NCBI GenBank assembly: GCA_916048055.1
Contig: CAJZHL010000031.1
Location: 1,542,738-1,606,737, forward strand
DNA from: Pedinophyceae sp. YPF-701
Taxonomy: Eukaryota > Chlorophyta > Pedinophyceae
Direction: 5' to 3'
DNA: 64,000 bases
Made by a program: the position numbers and the translations under genes. Position 1 is the stretch's first letter; each line of letters begins with the position of its first letter. Shown here piece by piece: positions 24,200-64,000 of this stretch. The notes under the pieces were generated by a model. It had not been told where the DNA came from. It saw only the letters and a list, made by a program, of their open reading frames with translations, and ran no database searches.

Positions 24200-26774
24200 T
24201 TACATGGCGCGTAGTGCGGCGGCGCTGCGCACGACGTTGGCCCACAGCGGCGCGGCGATCATCGCGCCCGTCCCGGGCAGCGGGCTCTCGTCGTCGCGCC
24301 CACACCACACGACGCACGACAGGCCCCGGCCGACGTACCCGGCGAACCACGCGTCCCGGTACGCGTCGCTCGTCCCCGTCTTCCCCGCGACGCCCCCGCC
24401 GCCCACCCACCGCCGCAGGTCCGCCACCCCCGCAGGCCCCAGCGCCGCACTCGCCGCCGCCCGCAGACAGTCGTCCAGGTCCCGCACGGCCCCGGCGCGC
24501 GCCACGCGGCGGCGCTCCGGGCGCGTCCTGTGCACGACCGACCGGCTCACGGTGTCCTCGACCTTCGAGATCAGATGCACCTGCGAATACACCCCCCCCG
24601 CTGCGATCGTGTTGTACGCCGCCGCCACCTCGGCCGGCGTGATCTCGCACCCGCCGATCGCGACGGACAGCGTCGACCGCAGCGGCGTCGTCACGCCCAT
24701 GCTCCGCGCCAGCCCGAGGACCGTCTCCAGCCGCGCCGCGTTGCAAATCCTGACCGCGGGGACGTTCAGGGAGTCGACGAGCGCCTCCTTGGCCGTCACG
24801 GGCCCGCGAAACATCTTGTTGTAGTTGTTCGGTGAGTAGTCGCCGTCCTCGGCGTCGCCGCCCGTCCCGGACCCCACCAACACCCCCAACGTCCCCCCCG
24901 CACCCCCCCCGCCCGCACTCCGCGCCCGCCCCGCCCCAAACCACCGCCGCCCCTCCTTGAAATACTCCTCCTGCAGCCGCACGTCCCTGTCCAGCAGCTC
25001 CTGCTCCAGCTCCTCGCCGCCCACCTCCGCCCACTCCAACCCCCCCGCCTCGCGCCGAAACACCACCGCTTCGTCCGACACCACCGTCGACGGCCGCGCC
25101 GCGCCGCCCGCGAACGCCGCGAGGTACACGATCGGCTTGAACGCCGACGCCACCGACCGCCGCGACCGCGTCGCCCGGTTGAACGCCGACCGCGACCAGC
25201 TGCGCGACCCCACCATGGCCAACACCCCCCCCGTCGCCGGGTGCGTCGCGACCACCGCGCACTCCCCGCGGTCCTCGCCGTACAGCGGCGCCTCCCCGTC
25301 CTCGAGCACCAGCGCCTCCACCGCCTCCTGCAGCGGCAGGTCCACCGTCGTGTGCACGCGCAGACCCCCCTGCGCCACGCGCTCGTGCCCGAACACCTCC
25401 TCGAGCTCCTTCATGACCTCCTGCACGATGAACGGCGCCTTGAACGGACTGCCGCTCCGCCGGACCGCCGCCGGCGGGACCCCGCCGGGCGACGCGCCGG
25501 GGCGCCCCACGAGGGATGCCGGCAGCCCAGCGGCGACGAGGCGCCGCGCTTCGCCGCGCGGGAGGAAGCCGACCTCGGCCATGCAGTACAGGACCTGCCG
25601 CCGCACGCGGTCCGCCCCCGCGGGGCTGTTGAACGGCGAGAGCGCCTCGGGCGCCGGCAACATGCCTGCCAGCAGCGCAGCCTCGTTCACGTCGAGGTCG
25701 CTCGCACGCTTCCCGAAGTACGCTGCGGACGCAGCTGCAAGGCAGGGCGAGCGCGTGCGAGGGTGTCCTGGTCAGTGCTCGGGACATGTCGGCACGGAAG
25801 TCGAGAAACCTCGAGTGCGGAGTGCACGCTTCGTGTCAGGGGGCGGCGCACCGGCGATGCCGTAGATCCCGTGGCCCCAGTACGCGCTGTTGAGGTACCG
25901 CGCCATCAGCTCCGACTTGGACACGCACCGCTCCACCGCCACCGCCAGGAACGCCTCGCACGCCTTGCGCGACACCGTGCGCGACGACCCCACCAGCTCG
26001 TTCTTCACGACCTGCTGCGTGATCGTGGACCCGCCGCCCGCGGCGCCGAGCGACAGCAGCGCGCGCGCGACGCCGCGCCAGTCGACTCCGGCGTGCGCGT
26101 GGAAGCGCCGGTCCTCGGCCGCGATCACCGCTTGCTGAATGGTGGGCGCGACGGCCGAGAGCGGGACCTTGTCGCGGGCGAGCGTGGCGATGACGCGCCC
26201 GCGGCGGTCCAGAATGACCGTCGGCTCCGCGACGGGCGCCGCCGCGGGTCCACCGTCGCTGCTCGCAAGCGCCCTGCAGTGCAACACACACGCGCACGAA
26301 TGCGGGACCGCGTGGGATCGCAGCGGCTGACATTGCGCGTTAACGGAACGGGCAAGGTGTGAGGTGGTCAGTGACGGCCAGCTCGGAACCCCCGCGCATG
26401 GGGGGTGTCTCCGTTCTGTTCTGTTCCTACCTGAAGCTGCCCAGGACGTCTCGGCCGTGCAGCGACGAGAGGAACCGGTGGACGTCCGCGAGCGCCAGGA
26501 GCGCCGCGACGCCGACCGCGGCCGCCACCTCCGGCCTCCTGCGCGCAAACCGCCGCACCGCGGACCACCCGCCGCGCCGCACGCTGCGGCCAATGTAGTA
26601 GTCTCTGCTGCCGGGCTGCTCGGAGGGCTGCCCGTCAGGATCGTCCGCGGAGCAGCGCGTCGTCTGGTCGACGCGCGTGCGCAGCGGGCATGCCGGGCTG
26701 CGGGGCGGCGGGCTGCGAGCGGTGCGTGGCGGCAGGTGCGGCGCCGCGTGCAGACCGAGAGCGGCCGAGTCCAT
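24200..26774 (-). CDS. class A penicillin-binding protein (PBP1A-type murein synthase), nuclear-encoded, probably plastid-targeted
   Basis: Class A PBPs polymerise lipid II and crosslink the peptides of peptidoglycan. Three exons, 26774-26431, 26273-25852 and 25734-24200, join in phase and give 766 residues if the ATG at 26774 is used; the frame is open upstream to 26984. One membrane span is visible (PEVAAAVGVAALLALADV). The glycosyltransferase domain (GT51) has AAEDRRFHAHAGVDW with the catalytic Glu, GGGSTITQQVVKNEL and the SKSELMARYLNSAYWG helix. The transpeptidase domain has the serine motif SVASAFKP, SLN for SxN and GKTGTSDAYRDAWFAGY. All catalytic motifs are intact. Introns show that it is nuclear, not bacterial contamination. 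Moss and some prasinophyte plastids retain such genes for division or an envelope wall. The presequence is Arg/Ser/Pro-rich and fits a transit peptide. Confidence 0.92.
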
Positions 26775-32946: not shown

Positions 32947-35592
32947 TTGAGAGCTGTTGAATCCTCCGTCGGACCTGGAGAGACGGACCATGTACAATCG
33001 CGCAGCGTATGTATTGTGCACTTACAGGGAACACCAGACGTATGGTGGGACGCGTTTCCAGGGCGTGCTGCCCCAGCTGTCGCCTCGAGCCGAGCAGCCT
33101 CGTCGGTTTCTTGCTCTGTCGGTATCTGTCTCCGAAGTGCGATGCTGGTAGTGAGCCACAAATTGTGGCTCACGATGATGATGATTCACGCCTGTGATAC
33201 ATCACGCCTGTGTCTCCAATTTGACCCTGCGCCCCCCGAGCCTCCGAGACTCAACCTGCACATTTCTCCGCCCGACCTCCACGGACCCGCGCCGTGTGTG
33301 CATGCGGCCCGCCTGGGCAGCCCTAACGCTGCGGGCGGTGTCCCACAGCTCACCAGCACTTGCCGCTGGGCGTGCTCGGCAGGCCTCCGCCTGGCCCCCA
33401 AAAAGTCCACCTTTCTCTCGTTCGGGGACACCCCCCGTACCACGACCCTGACCATGTTCACCCGTATCGACCCCGCCACCGGCCTCGTTGCCAAGCAGCA
33501 CAACATTGCCCCCTGCAAAAGCTGCAAGTATCTGGGCATCACCCTTGGCCAAGACAAGGGCCGACCACCGGGTGTATCGTCGCACATGTCCACCGCGGGC
33601 GACAAGTCCCGGAAGGCAATGTACAGCCTGTCGAAACGCTGCTGGCAGACGGGAATCTTTGACCCCCTCCTGCAATCTGCCCTCTTCAAGACATACGTCA
33701 CACCGGTGTCGACGTACGGCTGCGAACTCTGGTCACCACGCCTCGGCCTCAAGCCGCTGCGGGACCTTGACGGCCGCCTGACACGCATCCCGTCCCAACA
33801 CCCCGCGCGCGCCCAGCGTGCATTTCTCGCCTCCCTCATATCCACCGCCAACCAGCGGATCACTTCCTGCTACAAGACGCCGCCCGAGCTGCTCTTCCGC
33901 GAGTTCGGGGCGCTTCCCCTCGAAGCGACGTTGTGGGCCCGTAACTTCGACTTTTGGGACTCGTTGACGAAGCTGCTGTACACAGCGCGAACGAACCCGA
34001 CCTTGCCCCCCGACTTCCCGCACATGACGGTCCGGGCGTTCACCGCGCAGCTGCTGCTCGCGGCGGAGCCCGATTCCGACGCGTTCGTCACCCACCCTCC
34101 AGCAGGAGACACAGCGGAGGGCGACGCGACATCGTCGAGCGCCGCACGGATGGGCCGCCCCCGTGCGGCTCAGCCGGACCCGTCGGACGACACGGACGAC
34201 GACGACGGAGCTGCACCGCCGGGCCAACAGCGGCGACTACGACAACTTCAACTCCCCCCGCACATGCAGCCGGGCCGGCGCGACGCAGGAGCACGGACCG
34301 CCGCGCGCCGAGACCACGCAGCTCGGGGCACCCGAGGCAGGGGACGTGCAGCACGGGGCGGCCGCACACCATCTCGATCGCGGCCCTCGCTACCACCGGC
34401 ATCCCGCAGCACTGAATCGAACCGCTTGACTGTTCGCACGCTGGACCGGACCACGCGAGGGGGATCCCGCGCTACACCGAGGCCGAACTACTGCGAGGAC
34501 TCCTCGGCTGCAACTGGCGACGACAGCGAATCAGAGTATGAGGGGTCGCACAACGCTACTGCGTCTTCAACGACCTCCCTGACGGACTCGGATGAGCCGG
34601 GCCAGCGGTCGCAGCCACGGAGCACCCGGGGACGGGGGCGAGGCGGACGATCACGGGGTCGCGGGCGGCGCGGGGGAGGCAGGAGCGGCGCGGGCCGACG
34701 GGGACTACGCACGACGTCGACAACTCGTACGAGCACAAGGCGCGCCGAACCCGCAGCCCACCGCCTCCGCAAACGCGAGCTACCGTGGGCAGCGCACATC
34801 GCGGCGGCCATCACTCAGATAGGCGGCACGCCAGGGACCCCGCAGCAGCCACACCCTGCACCTGCTGTGGGCAGGGTACGAAAGATCGCTCAGGTCGTGC
34901 TGCCGGACCACGAGCCCGCGGCAACCCCGGATCCCCGGACCGAGGTCACTCAGCACGGGCTTGGCCGCACACGGGCCAGGTACGCCTGGTGGTGCCAGCC
35001 ACCACCGCGCACCATCCCTTCACATCTGCTCGACACCGCGATCTACCACGCGGACCGCCGTGCCCTATCCCGCCTGCGTGTGGGAGCTACGAGGCTGCGC
35101 ACCTCCACGATGGCCATGGCGGACCAGGAGCAGCAGTGGCAACACACACCGCTGTCGCACCCGTCGAAAGTCTGCCGCTTCTGCGTGGACGTGGCGGCAT
35201 CGCCCGCCCCGGAGGACCTCCGCCACCTGCTGCTGGACTGCCGCGCCCCAGCGGTACGCTCTCTCCGGGAACGAGCGGGCCTGGCCATGGACTCGTCTGG
35301 GCAGCTCACGCTGCCACCCCCGCCCGCTGCCGATGCGCCCCTGTCGTCCACGGCAACTGTTGGACAGCGCCGCCGCTTCGCTCTCAACCGCCGGCTACGC
35401 CAGCACCTCGAGGACCTGTACGGCGCTGCAACACTCGACTCGGAAGCCGCTGCCAACGCTGCAGTGCGTTATCTCCTGAACCTGCCGAATCAGCGAGGCA
35501 TGGCGATCTTTGCTCGTGGCATCGAGGATCTGCTCCAGGCCGACTCTGCCACAGCTGCCGAACCTGTTGCTACCATAACGGTGGGGGGTTAG
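32947..35592 (+). mobile_element. 5'-truncated non-LTR (LINE-like) retrotransposon, 3' part
   Basis: One frame is open from about 32947 to the TAG at 35590-35592. From about 33340 it resembles the part of a LINE reverse transcriptase that follows the catalytic palm: SAGLRLAPKKSTFLSFG, CKSCKYLGITLGQDKG, AMYSLSKRCWQ, and SALFKTYVTPVSTYGCELW, the typical end of such polymerases. A basic RG-rich linker follows (about 34580-34710). A C-terminal zinc-finger-like box CRFC...HLLLDC lies at about 35175-35240. The palm motifs with the YADD/FADD aspartates are not present upstream, so the copy lacks polymerase activity as it stands; 5' truncation is normal for LINE insertions. The left end is not precisely definable. 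Codon usage is less extreme than in neighbouring genes (more A and T at third positions). Confidence 0.8.
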
Positions 35593-48920: not shown

Positions 48921-51900
48921 ATGACAGCCGCCTCTACGTCGAAGCGGTCGCGCGGCATGCTCTCGACGGGACAGGACCACGAGGGCTTGAGTGCTGGGTG
49001 CGTCCCCCGCCTCCGCCTCGCGCCGCGGCCTTTCTCGCACGTCTTGCGCACACATAGCGATTCGAGACAGCAGACATGCGCGCAGGCTGCACGAAACGTG
49101 GTTGTTGCGCCCGCAGTGCTCACGCCGCGCCCCCACCTCTCACCCGCAGCGTGTCGCCCGTCAAGTACCTCAACGCGTCGATGAACCGCGCGATGGACCC
49201 GAACGACTCCTGGATGACGCACCCCAGCAGCGTGGAGCTCCGCACCGCCCAGACCATCGAGGGTGCGCCCCGCCACCCCTCTAACCCCCTCCCGCCACGC
49301 GCACATGCATCACGATGTTCCCGACCCCCCCCCGCGCACACACCGCCGGTCGCAGGCGTGATCAAGGCCGGCTTCCTCGAGAAGCGCCGGCAGAAGGCGA
49401 GCCCGCACGGCGAGTGGCAGCGGCGGTACTTTTTCCTCCTCCCCGACCGGCTGTGCTACGCGCGCGAGCCCGACCCCCCCCCGGGGTCCCGCCTCAAGTA
49501 CCTCCCGCTGGACAAGTTCCCGATCCGCCCGCTCCCGCGCCAGTACAAGCCGCAGCCCGCGGTCACGCTCCTCGAGCGCCGGCTCGTCCCGGGCGCGTGG
49601 GAGCTGCACCCGACCAAGGCGGCCTTCTCGCTGACGTGCGGCGTGCACACGTACTTCCTGATGGCCGAGAGCGACGCGGAGGCGCAGGCGTGGGTGCAGG
49701 CGATCGGGGAGGCGTGGATCAAGTGCGTGAAGCACTCGCTGCGGCACACGGAGGGGCGCGGGGAGGGGTGGATGAGCATGGTGGTGCCGCAGGACGACGG
49801 GGCGGCGGAGCGGTTCCGCGAGCAGCTCGAGGACGAGCAGCGGCGGCGGGCGGAGGCCGAGCGCGCGGCGGAGGAGGCGCGCCGGGACGCGGAGGCTGCG
49901 GCGCGGCGCGCGGCCGAGGCGGAGCAGCGGCAGCGGGAGCAGCAGCGCGCGCCGGCGGCACCCGCGGAGCCGCAGGTGGTGGAGGTGGTGCGCGAGGTGA
50001 TCAAGGAGGTGCCCGCGGCGCCGCCGGAGACGTTCCCGTACCGCGTGTCGATCCGGACGGGGCGGCACGAGGACGCGGGGTTCAGCGGGCCGGCCGAGCT
50101 GGCGCTGGTGGGCGATGCGGGCGCCAGCGAGTGGCACCGCGTCGACGGGCCGTTCCAGCGCGGGTGCGCGGCGAGCGAGAAGCTCGTGGAGCCGCGGCAC
50201 CTCGGCAAGCTGCGCGAGCTCGCGCTCGAGCGCGGCCGCGGCGCGGGCGGCGGCGGGTGGCAGCTCGAGCGCGTCACGGTGTGGGACGTCAAGCACAACG
50301 AGAAGTTCGTGTTCGAGGGGCCGTTCTGGCTGCGGCCCCCGCGTGACGGCGAGGAGCGCGCGCAGCTGCGGATCAACCCCGGCGCGCGCGGCGCCGCCGC
50401 GGACCGCCCCGCGACGACGTACGAGCTGGCGGTGCAGACGGGCGACGAGCAGGGCGCCGGGACGGACGCGGACGTGCACGCCGAGCTCGAGGGCGACGCG
50501 GGGAAGACGGGGTGGTTCCGGCTGCCCGCGCGGCCGCACCAGCTGCAGCGCAGCGGCCGCGACGTGTTCACCGTCCCCGACGTGCCGAGCGCGGGCGACC
50601 TGACGCACCTGAACCTGGAGGTCGGCGGCATCGGACGGGACCTGACGTGGCGGCCGAAGCAGGTCGACGTGACGGACAAGGCGACCGGGCGGACGTACAC
50701 GTTCCGGCCGGACAGGTGGCTGGACGGGGGCGACGCCGACGAGGCGCGCGGGCGGTTCCCCCTCGCGGACGGGGCGGGCGCGGAGGACCCCCTGAGCGAC
50801 TACGTGTTCACCGTGTGCACGGGCGGCGCGCAGGGCGCGGGCACGCAGGCCGACGTGTGCGTGGTGATGCGCGACGTCGACGGCCACGAGGCCGAGCCCG
50901 CGGTGCTGGACGAGCGCGGCAAGGAGTTCAAGCGCGGGTCGGAGCACGCCTTCGCGCGCCGCTGCCGGCGCCTCGGCGAGCTGCGGGAGATCGACGTGTC
51001 GCTGCGCGCGCTCCCCGGGCAGGACGGCCCCACGTGGTTCCTGGAACGAATCCTCATCGAACACAAGGCGCTCGGACGGACGTATCTGTTCCCGTGCGGG
51101 GACTGGATCGACCGGAGCTGCGGGATGATGCGGCGGCTCCCGGCGAAGGACCCCGGCGCGGCGGGCGCCGGGCGCGGGCGGTACGACATCACGGTGACCA
51201 CGGGCGACGTGCACGGCGCGGGGACGGACGGCGACGTGCGCGTGGAGTTCGCGGCCGCGGACGGCGTCGCGGGCCCGTTCCTGCTCGACGATCCCGGCGC
51301 GTCGTTCGACCGCGGGACCAGCCGGGCGTTCGAGAGGGAGGGGGCGGCGGTGGGGGACCTGACGCACTGCACGGTCGAGCTGCTCCTGCCCGCGGGGTCG
51401 TCCAAGGTGAGACGGTGGGAGCGCCGTGATGCGCCCCAGGCGGCCACGTCCCGGCTCGGAGAACTCGCTTGGTCCTTTGTTTTCCCTTGCCATTTGTGTT
51501 TTGTTATTATCCTGAGCTGACCAGCGTGCCTCCCTCCCAGTGCCGCGTCCCCGCAGCCGTGGTATTTGGACAAGGTCGAGGTGCGCCACCACGCGCGGGA
51601 CCGCACGTACGTGTTCCCGTGCAACGGGTGGATCGGCCCCAACAACGACTTCCGCATGCGGCTCTCGGCGGGCGACGGCGACGGGCCGCGGGGCGCGGCG
51701 CTGGCCGAGTACGTCGTCGCGGTCGACACCGCGGACGTCCGCGGCGCGGAGACGGACGCGTCGGTCTTCCTGGTGCTCGCTGGCGCGGACGGCAGCACGC
51801 GCCCCATGGAGCTCGCCCATGCGACGCCCCACGCGCGCGCGCCGTTCCGGCGCGGCGAGCAGGACGTGTTCCGGGTCCGCGGCGAGGCGGTGGGGCGCAT

Positions 51901-54900
51901 GGCGTCCGCGACGCTGTCGGTGGACGGCCGCGGCGCGAACCCGAACTGGTGCGTGGACCGCATGCACGTGCGGGAGAACGTGGACGACCAGGAGGTGGAC
52001 GCGGCGTGGTTCCTGTTCGAGAACCAGTGGCTCGGCCCCGCGCATCCGCTCCGCGAGCGCACCGTCGACGCGCGCCGCGCGCCCCCGCCGGAGCCCACGA
52101 CCTACCGCCTGCGCGTGGTCACCGCGGACGAGCGCTTCGCCGGGACGGACGCCGACATCTCCGCGGACATCCAGGGCGAGCACGGCAGCAGCGGCTTCCG
52201 CCCGCTCGTGAACGACTCGGGGAAGGACCTGTTCGAGCGCGGGTCGGTGGACGACTTTGTCATCGGCGACGTGCGGGACCTGGGGGAGCTGCACACGCTC
52301 GTGCTGCAGTCGAACGGCCGCGGCGTGGCGGCGGACTGGCTGTTCGAGCGCGCGGAGGTGACGCACGTGCCGTCGGGCCGGACGTGGCACTTCCCCGGGC
52401 CGCGCTGGATCGGGAGGAAGGGGGCGCTGGAGGCGCGGATCGCGGCGGGCGAGGCGCCGCGGGCGGTGGCGATGGTGGAGCGGGACGTGGTGCTGCACAC
52501 GTCGGCCGATCGCGGGTCCGGGACGACGTCGGCGCTGTGGGTGGCGGTCGAGGGCGCCGACGGGGCGCAGTCCGCGCGCGTGCGGCTCGAGGAGCGCCCG
52601 ACGGCGTTCAAGACGGGCGACCGCGACGAGTTCCGGATCTGGACGGAGGACGTCGGCCCCGTGCAGGCGCTCTGGGTCGGCCTCGTCGAGGGCACGGGCA
52701 ACATGGAGTGGCTGTGCGCGTACGGGGAGCTGCGGAGCGCCGGCGAGGGCGACTTCACGCAGTTCCCGTGCGGGCAGTGGCTCTCGCGGACGCGCGGCGA
52801 CCGGCAGACGGCGCGCCGCCTCGTCCCCGGGCGCGTCAACGCCGGGAAGACCCACTACACGCTCGACGTGCACACGTCGGCGCTCCCGGGGGCCGGAACG
52901 TCGGGGCTGGTGTTCGCGGAGCTCGCGGGGGACCGCGGGCGCAGCGGCGAGCAGGAGCTCCTCCCGACCTCGGACGCGAAGCCGTTCCAGCCGGGCTCGG
53001 CGGACCGGGTGTTCATGTTGGGCGACGACGTGGGCGACATGCAGGAGCTGACCGTGCGGCTGCAGGGCGTGCCCGCGGACCCGCGCCCGGAGTGGCACCT
53101 CTCGCACGTGCGCGCGGAGCACGGCACCAGTGGCCAGGAGCGCTGGTTCGTGTTCCAGCGGTGGCTGTCGGACCGCACGGGGCTCGTGGCGACGGCGCGC
53201 CCCTCTGCGGGCCCGCCCGCGGAGCCGAAGGTGCCGGAGCTGCCGGAGTACGACGCGTGGGTGTTCACCGCGCCGGGGCACAACTCGGGGATGGACGGGC
53301 AGGCGGCGCTGACGCTGGTGGGCGCGGCGGGGGCGCGCGGGGGGCCGCACCCGCTCATCCCGGACCCCGGCGCGCCGCAGCCGTTCGGCGCCGGGCAGGC
53401 CGACCACTTCCGGTTCAAGCAGGAGCGCCTCGGCGAGCTGGACGCCGTCGAGCTGCACGCCACGTTCGGTGCGTGCCGGTCGCGCTCCGAAACGCATCGG
53501 CTGCTACGCTTGCTTGTTTCGCGTCGACCGACGCATGCTCACTTCCTCTCTCGTCGCATCCTCCCGCTGGCCGCCGCGCAGGTCGCATCCCGAGCTGGTG
53601 CGTGTCGAAGGTCGTGGTGCGCGACCCGGACGGAACGGAGACGACGTTTGTACCCGAGGCCGGCGGCCCCGTGTGGCTCACGAAGGACGTGCCGGGCCGG
53701 ACGCTCCGACGGTTCGCGAACAAGGTGCGCACCTCCGCGATCTGCGCGACGCGCACCGGCGTGGTGCTCGCACGCGCACGCGAGCTGCCCCCCTGTGCTG
53801 CCCGCTTGGTGGCTCACCGCGATGAGCGACGCCCGCCGCCCCGCAGGTGTACGAGATGGAGACGACCACGGGCGAGCGCACGCGCGCGGGCCCGACGCAG
53901 CTCACCGTCAGCGTCGCGGGCACGCACGGCACCATCCCTGAGCACATCGTCGTCGACCACACCATGGACCCGTTGCCGCACTTCCGCGCGGGACAGCCGT
54001 TCGAGTGCGAGCTCGACGCGCCCGAGGAGCCGGGGGACCTGCGGGACCTCACGCTCAAGGTCGGGGGCCGCGGCACCGAGTGGCATCTCAACACCATCAC
54101 GCTCAAGGACAGGCTGACGGGGCAGAAGTGGTACTTCCCGTACAACGACGTGATATTCATACCGCTGGACGCCCCCGAGGACACGAAGACCGTTGCTATC
54201 CGCGCCCAGGCGAAGCCGCTCCCGCCGCTCCCGCGCCGCGAGACGCCACCGCCGCCGCAGCGCAGGGAGACGCCGCCGCCGCCGCCCGAGCCCGAGATCG
54301 CGCCCGCGCCCGCGCCCCCCGGAATGGTGCGCCGCGCATCACGCACCTCGCGATCGCCCGGTGCTCCCGTCCCGCGCGCCCGGAGGCGCCAACGTCGAAG
54401 GAACCATCGTGCGGCTTTGCTTGCAGGACGAGAGCACGGGCCCGCAGGTGTGCGACTACAAGATCGACGTGGTGACGGGCATGGACCCCGACGTGCGGCA
54501 GGACGTCGCGCAGCTGTGCAAGGTCCGGGTCTTCGGCGAGGAAAAGAGCTCGGAGTGGTGCGCTGCCCCCGGTCGCCACGCACCGCACCGCACCGCGGCC
54601 GCCCTGTCTGCGCTGGGCCCCGTGCGACGACGCGCCCCGCCGCCGGCGTCTCCGCTCCCCGCAGGATCGAGCTGTCGCAGCGCACGTGCACGAACCCGAA
54701 GGTGCACGGCCTGCTGTTCATGCCGGACGCGCGGGACGAGTTCGCCGCGCGCGACCGCGACCTGGGCCAGATGGTGGCGCTGGAGCTGGAGATGGACAAC
54801 GGGCGCCGGGGGGTGCGGTGGCTGCTGCGGGAGATGGTCGTTACCAACGCGACGACCGGCGCCGTCGCGCGCTTCCCGTGCGAGGCGGTGCTGCGCGCCG

Positions 54901-61348: not shown

Positions 61349-62226
61349 CCTCGCGGCCCAGGGCCGCCCGCGTTGTGAATGCATCGGATGCAGCTGGCGC
61401 GCGTCGCGGCCCTGTTCATGCCGCGAGCCCGCGCGCGAGCCGTCTGCCTGCCCTGGGCGCCCGTGACGTGCAATGACAGGGTGAGGTGCCGTCGGTGACG
61501 ACGAGGCGCACGCGGTGGCCTGCTCGTTGGGCTGCGACGTGCGGCTGGCGGGCCTGCAGCGCCGATGCTCGCCGGCCTCGGGCGCCGCTCCCGACGGAGC
61601 GGCTGTGCGGCGCGGGTGTGCACCAGGACGGTTTCGACGGCAGCGCTGGCGGGGGGGGGGCTGCTCGGCGGAGCAGGTCGGATCGGAGAGGTCGTGCGGG
61701 TGCGAGGGCGCTTGGCGGGGGGCGGACGGCGCCCGCGCTTGCAGCCCGCGTGGAGCGAGCGCCAGCGCGGCACGCGGGGCGGGGGCACGCTCGTGTGGCA
61801 TGCACACAAGGTGGTGGACGCGCTGCGAAGCTTGGACTGGTGTCTGACCGCCCGTGAGCGCCCGGGCCACGATGCATGCTCGGACCATCCACCTGTCTGC
61901 GCGACCGCCGCGTCGCGTGCCGTGCAGAGGGCATGTTTCATTCGACTGTCTGCGCACACGGCTCGTGCCCTCGCAGGGGGTGTTGGAGGCGCGCATGGCC
62001 GGGTCACGGGGCACAATGTCGCCGTCGCGGCCCAGTCCACGCTCCGATCCCCCGTGTGTGTTCCGCCTCCACTTGCCATGGCACCCCAGGCACGACGCCA
62101 GCGCGGCGACGCAGGGGCTCGTCTCGTTCGACGACAGCGCCCGGGGGAGCCTGAGCGCCCGCGGCCGCAACCACCGGAGCGCGGACGTGCGGGCGGCGGC
62201 GATCACGTAGAAGGGCGGCGCTGCAG
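61349..62226. other. intergenic or unresolved exons
   Basis: Probably includes upstream exons of the gene whose 3' exons follow. One fragment around 62108-62210 (GLVSFDDSARGSLSARGRNH) looks protein-like after a possible acceptor at 62107. It cannot be joined to the next exon with a normal-length intron, so it is left unassigned. Confidence 0.4.
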
Positions 62227-62684
62227 TGGGTGCGGAGATCTACAAGGAGGGCGCGGTGTGCCTCGCGAGGTGCCGTTGACGGAGGCCGGGGCGCGGTGCA
62301 GGCGCTCGCGGTGCCGGACGCGTGTCTACTTGACCATACACAGCCGGGGGCATCGTTGGAGGAGAGCTGCAGGTCGCAGGGCGCCCTCCAGCTGGAGGAC
62401 ATTGTGTCGCAAGGTGCGCCGGCACGCGCCGCGGTGGTGACGCGCTGTGCGCGCATGCAACCGCACGCAGCACTTGATGCTGATCCTGCGACTGCCGACC
62501 TGCGGCTGCCTCCGCAGAATCGGGCGCTGCGCTGTCGCGACGGGAGCTGCGAGGCGCAATCGCGCATGTGGCGGTCGGTAGCGAGCGCGGCCTGTGTCTC
62601 GTGTGCGCCGCGCCCCGCCACCTGTGCGTTCTCGAACTGGACGACGACGAGGACGACGATGCGTCGGACGCGGACGTGGACTGA
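62227..62684 (+). CDS. 3' exons of an unidentified gene (5' end unresolved)
   Basis: Three exons, 62227-62255, 62302-62413 and 62518-62684, join with consistent phases (0, then 1). They encode GAEIYKEGA, then ALAVPDACLLDHTQPGASLE and LQLEDIVSQ, joining ESGAALSRRELRGAIAHVAV, ERGLCLVCAAPRHLCVLEL and an acidic tail DDDEDDDASDADVD before TGA. The sequence looks like a true protein end (hydrophobic strands plus acidic tail), but I do not recognise a family. Upstream exons must exist, because the first listed exon begins in phase 1. The introns would be short (46 and 104 bases), and the 46-base one lowers confidence. Confidence 0.45.
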
Positions 62685-63116
62685 TCGGAGACGTGTGTGT
62701 TTGTCGGCGGCGGGCCTGACTGGTCGTGATGCGGCCCGCGTCTCTCTGTGTCTCTGACTAGACTAGAGACCTGGCTCACACAAGACACTCGCAGGTGTCC
62801 GCTGTAACTCCGTCTAGCTGCGCTCGGCTAGCGGCAGCGGCAATCTAGCAGAAGGCAACTTGCCTAACTGACTGGCTCAGGTCAGACTGACACCTAGTGG
62901 TGGTCAGCCCGGCATCATCTCCTCCCCATCCTAATAAGTGGTTAGCATGACACGGTAGGGAAGGCGGGGAACGATAGTGACGGGTGTGGGAACTATGATC
63001 GGAAACAAGGGCTGGAAACAAAGGGTGCGTTGGACGTTCTTGATCGCAGCAGGCGGCGGGGTCCTTTGCGAACGCCATGCGTTCTCCGCACTTGAGGAAC
63101 CTGCGTGGCTGTGACG
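62685..63116. other. composition shift into the subtelomere-like region
   Basis: From about 62.75 kb the base composition falls from roughly 70% GC to near 50%, and no GC-rich gene continues. Short open frames on the minus strand (for example 62845-63078) have no motif. It may be the 3' untranslated part of the minus-strand remnant that ends at 63117. Confidence 0.5.
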
Positions 63117-63230
63117 CTATTCGGAACCGTAGTTGTACTCGAACTCGTCGATGACTTCAGGCAGCTGACTCGCCTTCATGTCCGTCGGAAGGTTGAGGTA
63201 CTGGTTGAAGGGGTCGAGGTCATGTGGTCT
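63117..63230 (-). pseudogene. C-terminal coding remnant cut off at a telomere-like array
   Basis: Reading leftward from 63230, the frame encodes RPHDLDPFNQYLNLPTDMK and then SQLPEVIDEFEYNYGSE before TAG at 63119-63117. The amino-acid composition (Asp, Asn, Tyr, Phe, Glu, Leu) is that of a folded protein and differs from chance frames of this genome. Just upstream in the same frame the GGTCTTA array supplies a stop, and no methionine precedes it, so the 5' part of the gene is missing. I do not recognise the protein. A fragment of a mobile element placed at a chromosome end is one possibility. Confidence 0.5.
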
Positions 63231-63258
63231 TAGGTCTTAGGTCTTAGGTCTTAGGTCT
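63226..63258 (+). repeat. telomere-like array (GGTCTTA)4
   Basis: Four exact 7-base units plus GGTCT, followed by a T run. As TTAGGTC, the unit differs from the plant-type TTTAGGG and animal-type TTAGGG repeats by a C in the G-rich strand. It is the same unit as the array at the right end of the window. Confidence 0.85.
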
Positions 63259-63680
63259 TTTTTTGTGATTTTTAGAGAATGCCCCCAATGCCCCCAAGGG
63301 GTACATTTCCGCCGCTGGCGGTCCGGTGTCCGCGACTCCGGGGCGGAATGTGTTAGCGCTGTCGGCGTTCAACGCCGGGGCATCCTACGAGGTGCGCGGC
63401 GGGGCCTAAGACGACCGGGCGGCGGAGCTACGGGCCGCCAAAGCGGCGGGACCAGGAAACAGGTGGTGGTTTTCGGGCTCTGGCGTCGCGGTGCGGGCGC
63501 CGTTCGCGCTGAATCGCGTGCCCTATTGGCGAAATGTCGCGGCACGCCCGCCGCGGCGGCGAACGTAGGGAATGCACGGGACACGGCGACGGTAGCGCGG
63601 AAAAGTGCGTGTGACATCGGCCGTCAGACTTGACCTTGGGTGGCTTGGCAGTCACGAAACAGAGTCTAGTCGTGAGTCGG

Positions 63681-63745
63681 TCAGATATATGTCTGATCAA
63701 ATATGCCTCGTGACTCGGAAGATACCCGTCAAATAGGCATATTTG
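63681..63745. repeat. inverted repeats: near-palindrome and 10-base stem
   Basis: 63681-63696 is a near-perfect palindrome (TCAGATATATGTCTGA, one mismatched pair). Immediately beyond, CAAATATGCC (63698-63707) is repeated exactly in inverted orientation as GGCATATTTG (63736-63745) with a 28-base loop. The two structures are AT-rich and lie between the two telomere-like arrays. Confidence 0.8.
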
Positions 63746-63907
63746 CAGATATGCGTCGTCAACTTGTTCGCCCATGACTGGCCTTAGCGACTAACTGGAG
63801 GGTGCAGGCATCGACGCTCCGTCCAGGCGTGAGCCTTAGAGACCGATGAGGACGACTTAGGACTCAGGACTTAGTTTTAGCGACTGAGCCGCGGCGTGAG
63901 CCTTAGA

Positions 63908-64000
63908 GGTCTTAGGTCTTAGGTCTTTTAGGTCTTTAGGTCTTAGGTCTTAGGTCTTAGTTTTTAGGTCTTAGGTCTTAGGTCTTAGGTCTTAGGTCTT
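63908..64000 (+). repeat. telomere-like array (GGTCTTA)n with variants, reaching the window edge
   Basis: About a dozen units of GGTCTTA occur, some with extra T (GGTCTTTTA, GGTCTTTA, GTTTTTA). The array becomes regular toward the right edge and is cut by the window end. Related broken units (GACTTAGGACTCAGGACTTAG) precede it at about 63855-63875. The G/T-rich strand runs 5' to 3' toward the right, the orientation expected at a right-hand chromosome end. Confidence 0.85.

Follow-up and report, generated by a model that had tools for sequence, protein, structure and literature searches.

Does the stretch of DNA analysed here (64,000 bases, referred to below as the window) finish in a chromosome end of the green alga Pedinophyceae sp. 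YPF-701, and is the heptamer TTAGGTC that is repeated at its right edge the telomeric repeat of this alga? Based on the evidence discussed below, it is very probable that the segment 63907-64000 represents a real YPF-701 chromosome end, and that TTAGGTC is the telomerase-made telomeric repeat of the alga. The argument rests on the position of the arrays, on their orientation and on their recurrence at unrelated ends, and not on the sequence of the repeat itself. Three perfect TTAGGTC units were also found in 101 bacterial stretches in a scan of bacterial genomes, and the sequence alone therefore proves nothing. Six stretches were returned by a scan of viral contigs for three perfect units.

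The right end of the window

The window corresponds to C31:1542738-1606737 in the assembly of YPF-701, which comprises 27,899,919 bases in 32 contigs. Since contig C31 has a size of 1,606,737 bases and stops at the last base of the window, position 64000 is the contig end; a continuation into ordinary genes, which a preliminary description of this DNA had named as evidence against a telomere, is therefore not the case. The window contains TTAGGTC 15 times, exclusively on the + strand, with four copies at 63230-63257 and 11 copies at 63912-63998. The number expected by chance in the window is 0.80, and 15 copies were reached in none of 100 dinucleotide shuffles. Tandem Repeats Finder delimited two arrays with a period of 7, one at 63226-63259 (4.9 copies, 100% match) and the other at 63907-64000 (13.0 copies, 91% match), and the arrays previously described at 63226-63258 and from 63908 to the edge are thus present, with coordinates that are right to within about one base. 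The description had also noticed a greater regularity toward the edge, and indeed the five edgemost TTAGGTC units are perfect and stand in tandem; an irregular TTAGTTTTTAGG stretch lies inward of them. Furthermore, the orientation is that proposed for a right-hand chromosome end, as all the units in the window are on the + strand, with the G-rich strand outward, and the contig stops at 64000.

Table 1. Features identified in the last 2 kb of the window (positions are those of the window)
Feature	Position	Strand	Basis
Probable terminal telomeric array, about 13 TTAGGTC units with T-number variants, G-strand toward the contig end	63907..64000	+	Contig end, and arrays at eight other ends
Probable interstitial telomeric array bordering the subtelomeric satellite on its centromere-proximal side; 4.9 perfect units	63226..63259	+	Array-plus-satellite layout also at C31L; array near satellite at C5L
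Subtelomeric satellite	63262..63908	+	BLAST matches longer than 100 bases at 11 further contig ends, with identities of 77-99.8%
Duplicated subtelomeric block	62003..62722	+	BLAST match (86% identity) about 6 kb inward from the left end of C19

The two arrays are separated by a satellite, which we compared by BLAST of window positions 62000-64000 against contig-end sequences (10 kb at the left ends of C1-C20, and mostly 600 bases elsewhere). The matches, several of them partial, are located at C1R, C5L, C6R, C7R, C10L, C10R, C14L, C19L, C21L, C23L and C31L (R and L denoting right and left ends), and weaker matches of 68-71% identity are also present. At C14L the satellite is repeated in tandem every 1.07 kb or so (C14:1-10000); exact telomeric 14-mers are located at 10.01-10.08 kb, on the inner side of this satellite array. 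A subtelomeric satellite had been put forward as an alternative reading of the whole region. This applies to the segment 63262-63908, which is shared with other ends, and probably does not apply to the terminal TTAGGTC array. From the inside outward, we read the order at this end as unique DNA, interstitial array, satellite and telomere.

Contig ends across the assembly

We read 53 of the 64 contig ends, namely the 32 left ends, the right ends of C1-C20 and C31R, the right ends of C21-C30 and C32 being outside this set. At nine of the 53, the extreme end consists of a TTAGGTC array (C1R, C4R, C11R, C20R, C31R, C10L, C19L, C24L and C28L), and in all nine the G-rich strand is oriented 5' to 3' in the outward direction. 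No inward-pointing unit was present in the last 600 bases of 52 ends, or in the window. A genome-wide search for the 14-mer TTAGGTCTTAGGTC gave 74 overlapping matches, 38 forward and 36 reverse (reversed-pattern control, 0), and no exact copy at the right ends of C21-C30 and C32. These matches form 18 outward-pointing clusters, and the most internal one lies 11,091 bases away from its contig end. End zones of 11.1 kb make up 2.5% of the genome, yet they contain all 18 clusters. It is also relevant that the flanks of the terminal arrays, taken as the 490 bases inside each of them, are mostly unrelated: 33 of the 36 pairs have no common sequence at E 1e-5, the exceptions being C1R-C31R, C1R-C4R and C4R-C11R. 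These results, together with the TERT domains described below, support the initial suggestion of an unusual TTAGGTC telomere.

It should be noted that TTAGGTC is not terminal at 44 of the 53 ends read, which counts against the telomere reading. Among these ends, the subtelomeric satellite is present near or at the edge of C6R, C7R, C10R, C14L, C21L, C23L and C31L, the last of which has four TTAGGTC units about 250 bases inside the edge, and C15R, C16R, C29L and C32L stop in what by eye is a simple GTCGTGGGCGCC-type repeat. Because satellite or GTCGTGGGCGCC-type repeat sits at or near their edges, these eleven ends look like assembly breaks. The assembled arrays measure about 50-100 bases up to the contig stop, and the real array size may differ.

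The occurrence of TTTAGGG or of another unit at other ends had been named as possible counter-evidence, and it was not seen. Tandem pairs of TTAGGG, TTTAGGG or TTTTAGGG were sought throughout the assembly with the single pattern TTAGGGN{0,2}TTAGGG, which gave one isolated match in 27.9 Mb (TTAGGGATTAGGG, at C32:704296) against three for the reversed-pattern control; as judged with this pattern, the assembly contains no TTAGGG-class array. Inspection by eye of the assembled DNA at the 53 ends revealed no other telomere-like terminal repeat.

Variation of the repeat unit

The units were chained inward from the nine ends, stopping at the first irregular unit, so that C31R contributes only four. 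Of the 78 chained units, 59 are AGGTCTT. The others are AGGTTTT (5), AGGTCTTT (4), AGGGTCTT (3), AGGTCTTTT (3), AGGTTTTT (2), AGGTCT (1) and AGGTTT (1), and all these variants are of the slippage or single-change type. The variable T number, which had been likened to telomerase slippage, is consistent with this tally: the changes in T number and the extra G look like the products expected of such slippage. Exactly four T are found in five of the eight units lacking C, as a single C-to-T change would give. Such variants may derive from a misread template G, and sequencing error may be an alternative source. The T-number and C-to-T variants are scattered at the ends other than C20R. The AGGTTTT units, whose sequence equals TTTTAGG, are found at C28L (one) and at C20R (four), where they are adjacent to one another, close to the inner end of the array. 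The C20R run would be either a copied single variant or the product of a second telomerase RNA template.

TERT and the search for a telomerase RNA

The Telomerase_RBD domain (PF12009) was matched at C1:1466030-1466401, in a 1059-aa open frame, with E=2.9e-21 and 80.3 bits against a cut-off of 25; none of 14 control genomes gave a match. On the same strand, about 2 kb downstream, TERT_C (PF21399) was matched at C1:1468363-1468662 with E=3.9e-5 and 28.2 bits, barely above its cut-off of 27, and one bacterial control genome gave a match to it below the cut-off. We take both matches to represent one putative TERT gene. No match to POT1 was obtained in the genome, and the controls were likewise without any match, so that this negative result carries no information.

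On the proposed mechanism, TERT and a telomerase RNA would add TTAGGTC to 3' ends. The template of this RNA would carry more than one unit of the complement, as a circular permutation of 5'-CCUAAGA-3'; slippage on the T run would give TTT and TTTT units, and misreading of a template G would give the C-to-T units. The subtelomeric satellite would lie inside this cap and hold interstitial relics of TTAGGTC.

A search for the telomerase RNA template had been proposed, and we carried it out genome-wide. The expected sequence has seven 11-nt permutations; six of these were used as patterns, and AGACCTAAGAC was left out. The six patterns were found 2, 6, 2, 2, 6 and at least 12 times outside the outer 15.2 kb or so of the contigs. 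The reversed patterns gave 2, 6, 0, 3, 1 and 6 matches over the whole genome, and single 11-mers are therefore not clearly above chance. Overlapping patterns formed runs of 11-15 nt at at least 13 internal places. Under a third-order Markov model built from the sequence of the window and of 20 left ends, the expected number of matches is 1.3 at 12 nt, 0.2 at 13 nt and 0.007 at 15 nt; we observed at least 11 runs of at least 12 nt, at least six of at least 13 nt and at least two of 15 nt. Because these counts exceed the Markov expectation, the longer internal tracts look real. The search thus yielded candidate tracts, none of which was identified as the template, and with these six permutations no internal tract was singled out as a telomerase RNA.

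The 15-nt runs are located at C14:543998-544012 and C8:672848-672862(+). Further candidate tracts lie at C28:1394503-1394515(-), C10:1275407-1275419(+), C21:79835-79847(-), C14:907763(+), C19:474086(+), C28:79029(+) and C30:301354(-). We selected C14:544001 for closer reading because at that point it was the only internal site matched by two patterns. The sequence read (C14:543860-544200) contains a telomere-like insert of 16 bp, read as AGGGTCTTAGGTCTTA on the opposite strand, which is flanked by 12-bp direct repeats and starts with the AGGGTCTT variant known from the arrays. A flank repeat of at least 10 bp was obtained in seven of 20,000 shuffles. The site was set aside as a telomerase RNA gene, as it is an insert between direct repeats and no TATA box is visible. 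Telomeric inserts are known to arise during break repair in other organisms, and for the C14 insert the capture of telomeric DNA at a break seems more likely than an RNA gene. Its position between direct repeats counts in favour of the telomere reading.

One U6 gene was found, and the sequence upstream of it was examined as a guide to pol III promoters; this guide was dropped because one gene yields no consensus. Neither Rfam nor ARAGORN gave a match in the window, and Rfam returned one tRNA and nothing else from 200 kb of left contig ends.

Alternative explanations

One could envisage that the chromosomes really finish in another motif, absent from the assembly and located distal to TTAGGTC, which would then be a subtelomeric or telomere-adjacent microsatellite. 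In favour of this, the arrays are of small size and reach no farther than the contig edge, TTAGGTC is also found internally in subtelomeres, and heptamer arrays of this unit exist as ordinary repeats in bacteria. Nevertheless, nine ends with mostly unrelated flanks all stop in TTAGGTC, every one of the 18 clusters is directed outward and the pattern search revealed no TTAGGG-class array in the assembly, and we regard this explanation, the foremost competitor of the telomere reading, as improbable. We consider it very unlikely that the TTAGGTC telomeres are maintained mainly without telomerase, via recombination between ends or subtelomeric satellites. The matches to two TERT domains, on one strand and about 2 kb apart, argue against this, as does the scattering of T-number and C-to-T variants among the units at other ends. 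Moreover, the arrays of C20R, C24L and C28L are placed directly on flanks that, within the last 600 bases, are unlike the window satellite and match neither each other nor the other six flanks. A contribution of recombination would fit with the satellite being common to several ends and tandemly amplified at C14L, and with the four adjacent identical AGGTTTT units at C20R, which are a possible product of copying.

An artefact of assembly, adaptor sequence or contamination might be suspected from the fact that the nine arrays are alike in their short size and are all located at contig edges. This is hardly credible, because TTAGGTC is also found internally, beside the alga's own satellite, as well as in the insert with direct repeats inside C14, and because C31 encodes proteins listed by NCBI under YPF-701: the window frame for a penicillin-binding protein is 100% identical over 100% of its length to a YPF-701 protein, and the TrmE frame is 86% identical over 84% of the unspliced frame. 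The explanation that we favour therefore remains a telomere built of TTAGGTC units by telomerase.

Comparison with known telomere units

The YPF-701 telomere belongs to the known telomerase type, and the novelty lies in its unit. The canonical formula TxAyGz prescribes T first, then A, then G, with no other base, and TTAGGTC deviates from it by containing a C. The preliminary description had regarded a C in the G-rich strand as non-standard. In the passages drawn upon here, the green-algal units given are composed solely of T, A and G (PMC7046594, PMC10767889). The plant-type unit TTTAGGG is given for Arabidopsis, Chlorella and Ostreococcus (PMC7046594). The YPF-701 telomere resembles this type in its 7-nt unit, its T-A-G order, its G-strand running toward the end and the presence of TERT domains; it differs in having GG where the plant unit has GGG, and in the C of its G-strand (AGGTCTT versus AGGGTTT) (PMC7046594). 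The same source gives TTTTAGGG for Chlamydomonas and TTAGGG for Dunaliella; these, too, are telomeres of chlorophyte green algae, but their units obey TxAyGz with GGG, whereas TTAGGTC does not (PMC7046594). More similar in some respects are the streptophyte algae of the Klebsormidiophyceae, with TTTTAGG (PMC7046594), and Chloropicon, with (TT)TTTAGG (PMC12301720). Both share with YPF-701 the GG in place of GGG and a variable T number, and the five AGGTTTT units found here equal TTTTAGG; their units, in contrast to that of YPF-701, are without C (PMC12301720, PMC7046594).

Units with a C in the G-strand are described from insects and a flowering plant. The hymenopteran unit TTAGGTCTGGG is the nearest to TTAGGTC in letters, its first seven bases being identical to it, but it is an 11-nt unit with a TGGG ending and belongs to insects (PMC10632776, PMC9693754), and the likeness is presumably convergent. 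Genlisea has TTTCAGG/TTCAGG, likewise with a C within the G-strand and with GG only (PMC10767889). Genlisea is a flowering plant, and its C precedes AGG, whereas that of YPF-701 follows GGT (PMC10767889).

With respect to novelty, no report of TTAGGTC as a telomere unit of this alga, or of any pedinophyte telomere unit, was present among the literature matches listed; the genome paper and the 2013 survey lay outside the search, and an earlier mention is therefore possible. Words beginning with Pedino are absent from the main texts of PMC7046594 and PMC10767889. Strain YPF-701 was described in 2025 as Akinorimonas japonica, in a paper whose main text contains no word beginning with telomer (PMC12574857).

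YPF-701 is classified in the Pedinophyceae, within the core chlorophytes of the Chlorophyta. The pedinophyte lineage diverges close to the base of the core chlorophytes. Telomere units are regarded as constrained, since the telomerase RNA has to remain compatible with the end-binding proteins. TTAGGTC in place of TTTAGGG suggests a changed cap sequence in a little-studied branch of the green algae, and a C-containing, GG-only unit in Pedinophyceae would be a further switch of telomere unit. The unit predicts a telomerase RNA template that is a permutation of CCUAAGA longer than 7 nt, and thus the telomerase RNA gene should be findable and the co-evolution of end-binding proteins testable. In practice, TTAGGTC may serve as a marker for finishing pedinophyte assemblies, whose ends a TTTAGGG scan would miss. 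A wider scenario, which we put forward as speculative and unlikely as a whole, is that the pedinophyte template switched to the C-containing, GGG-less TTAGGTC, with the end-binding proteins and any G-quadruplex role changing too, that a further telomerase RNA, whose template is TTTTAGG-like, may have been retained, and that the relic nuclei which green dinoflagellates derived from pedinophytes may have TTAGGTC caps.

Other features of the window

Window positions 24200-25690 (- strand) encode part of a 766-aa penicillin-binding protein with PF00912 and PF00905. The named eukaryotic relatives among the matches listed are Micromonas pusilla and an entry labelled Mesvir1, which we take to be Mesostigma. 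The pedinophyte protein is a peptidoglycan enzyme that probably serves the plastid. An 881-aa frame at 32947-35592 (+ strand), to which no Pfam match was obtained, has motifs that by eye resemble those of a non-LTR retrotransposon reverse transcriptase in its C-terminal half. Finally, the frame at 51566-53941 (+ strand) contains four PLAT/LH2 stretches, and the neighbouring frames at about 49-51.5 and 54-55.7 kb resemble it by eye.
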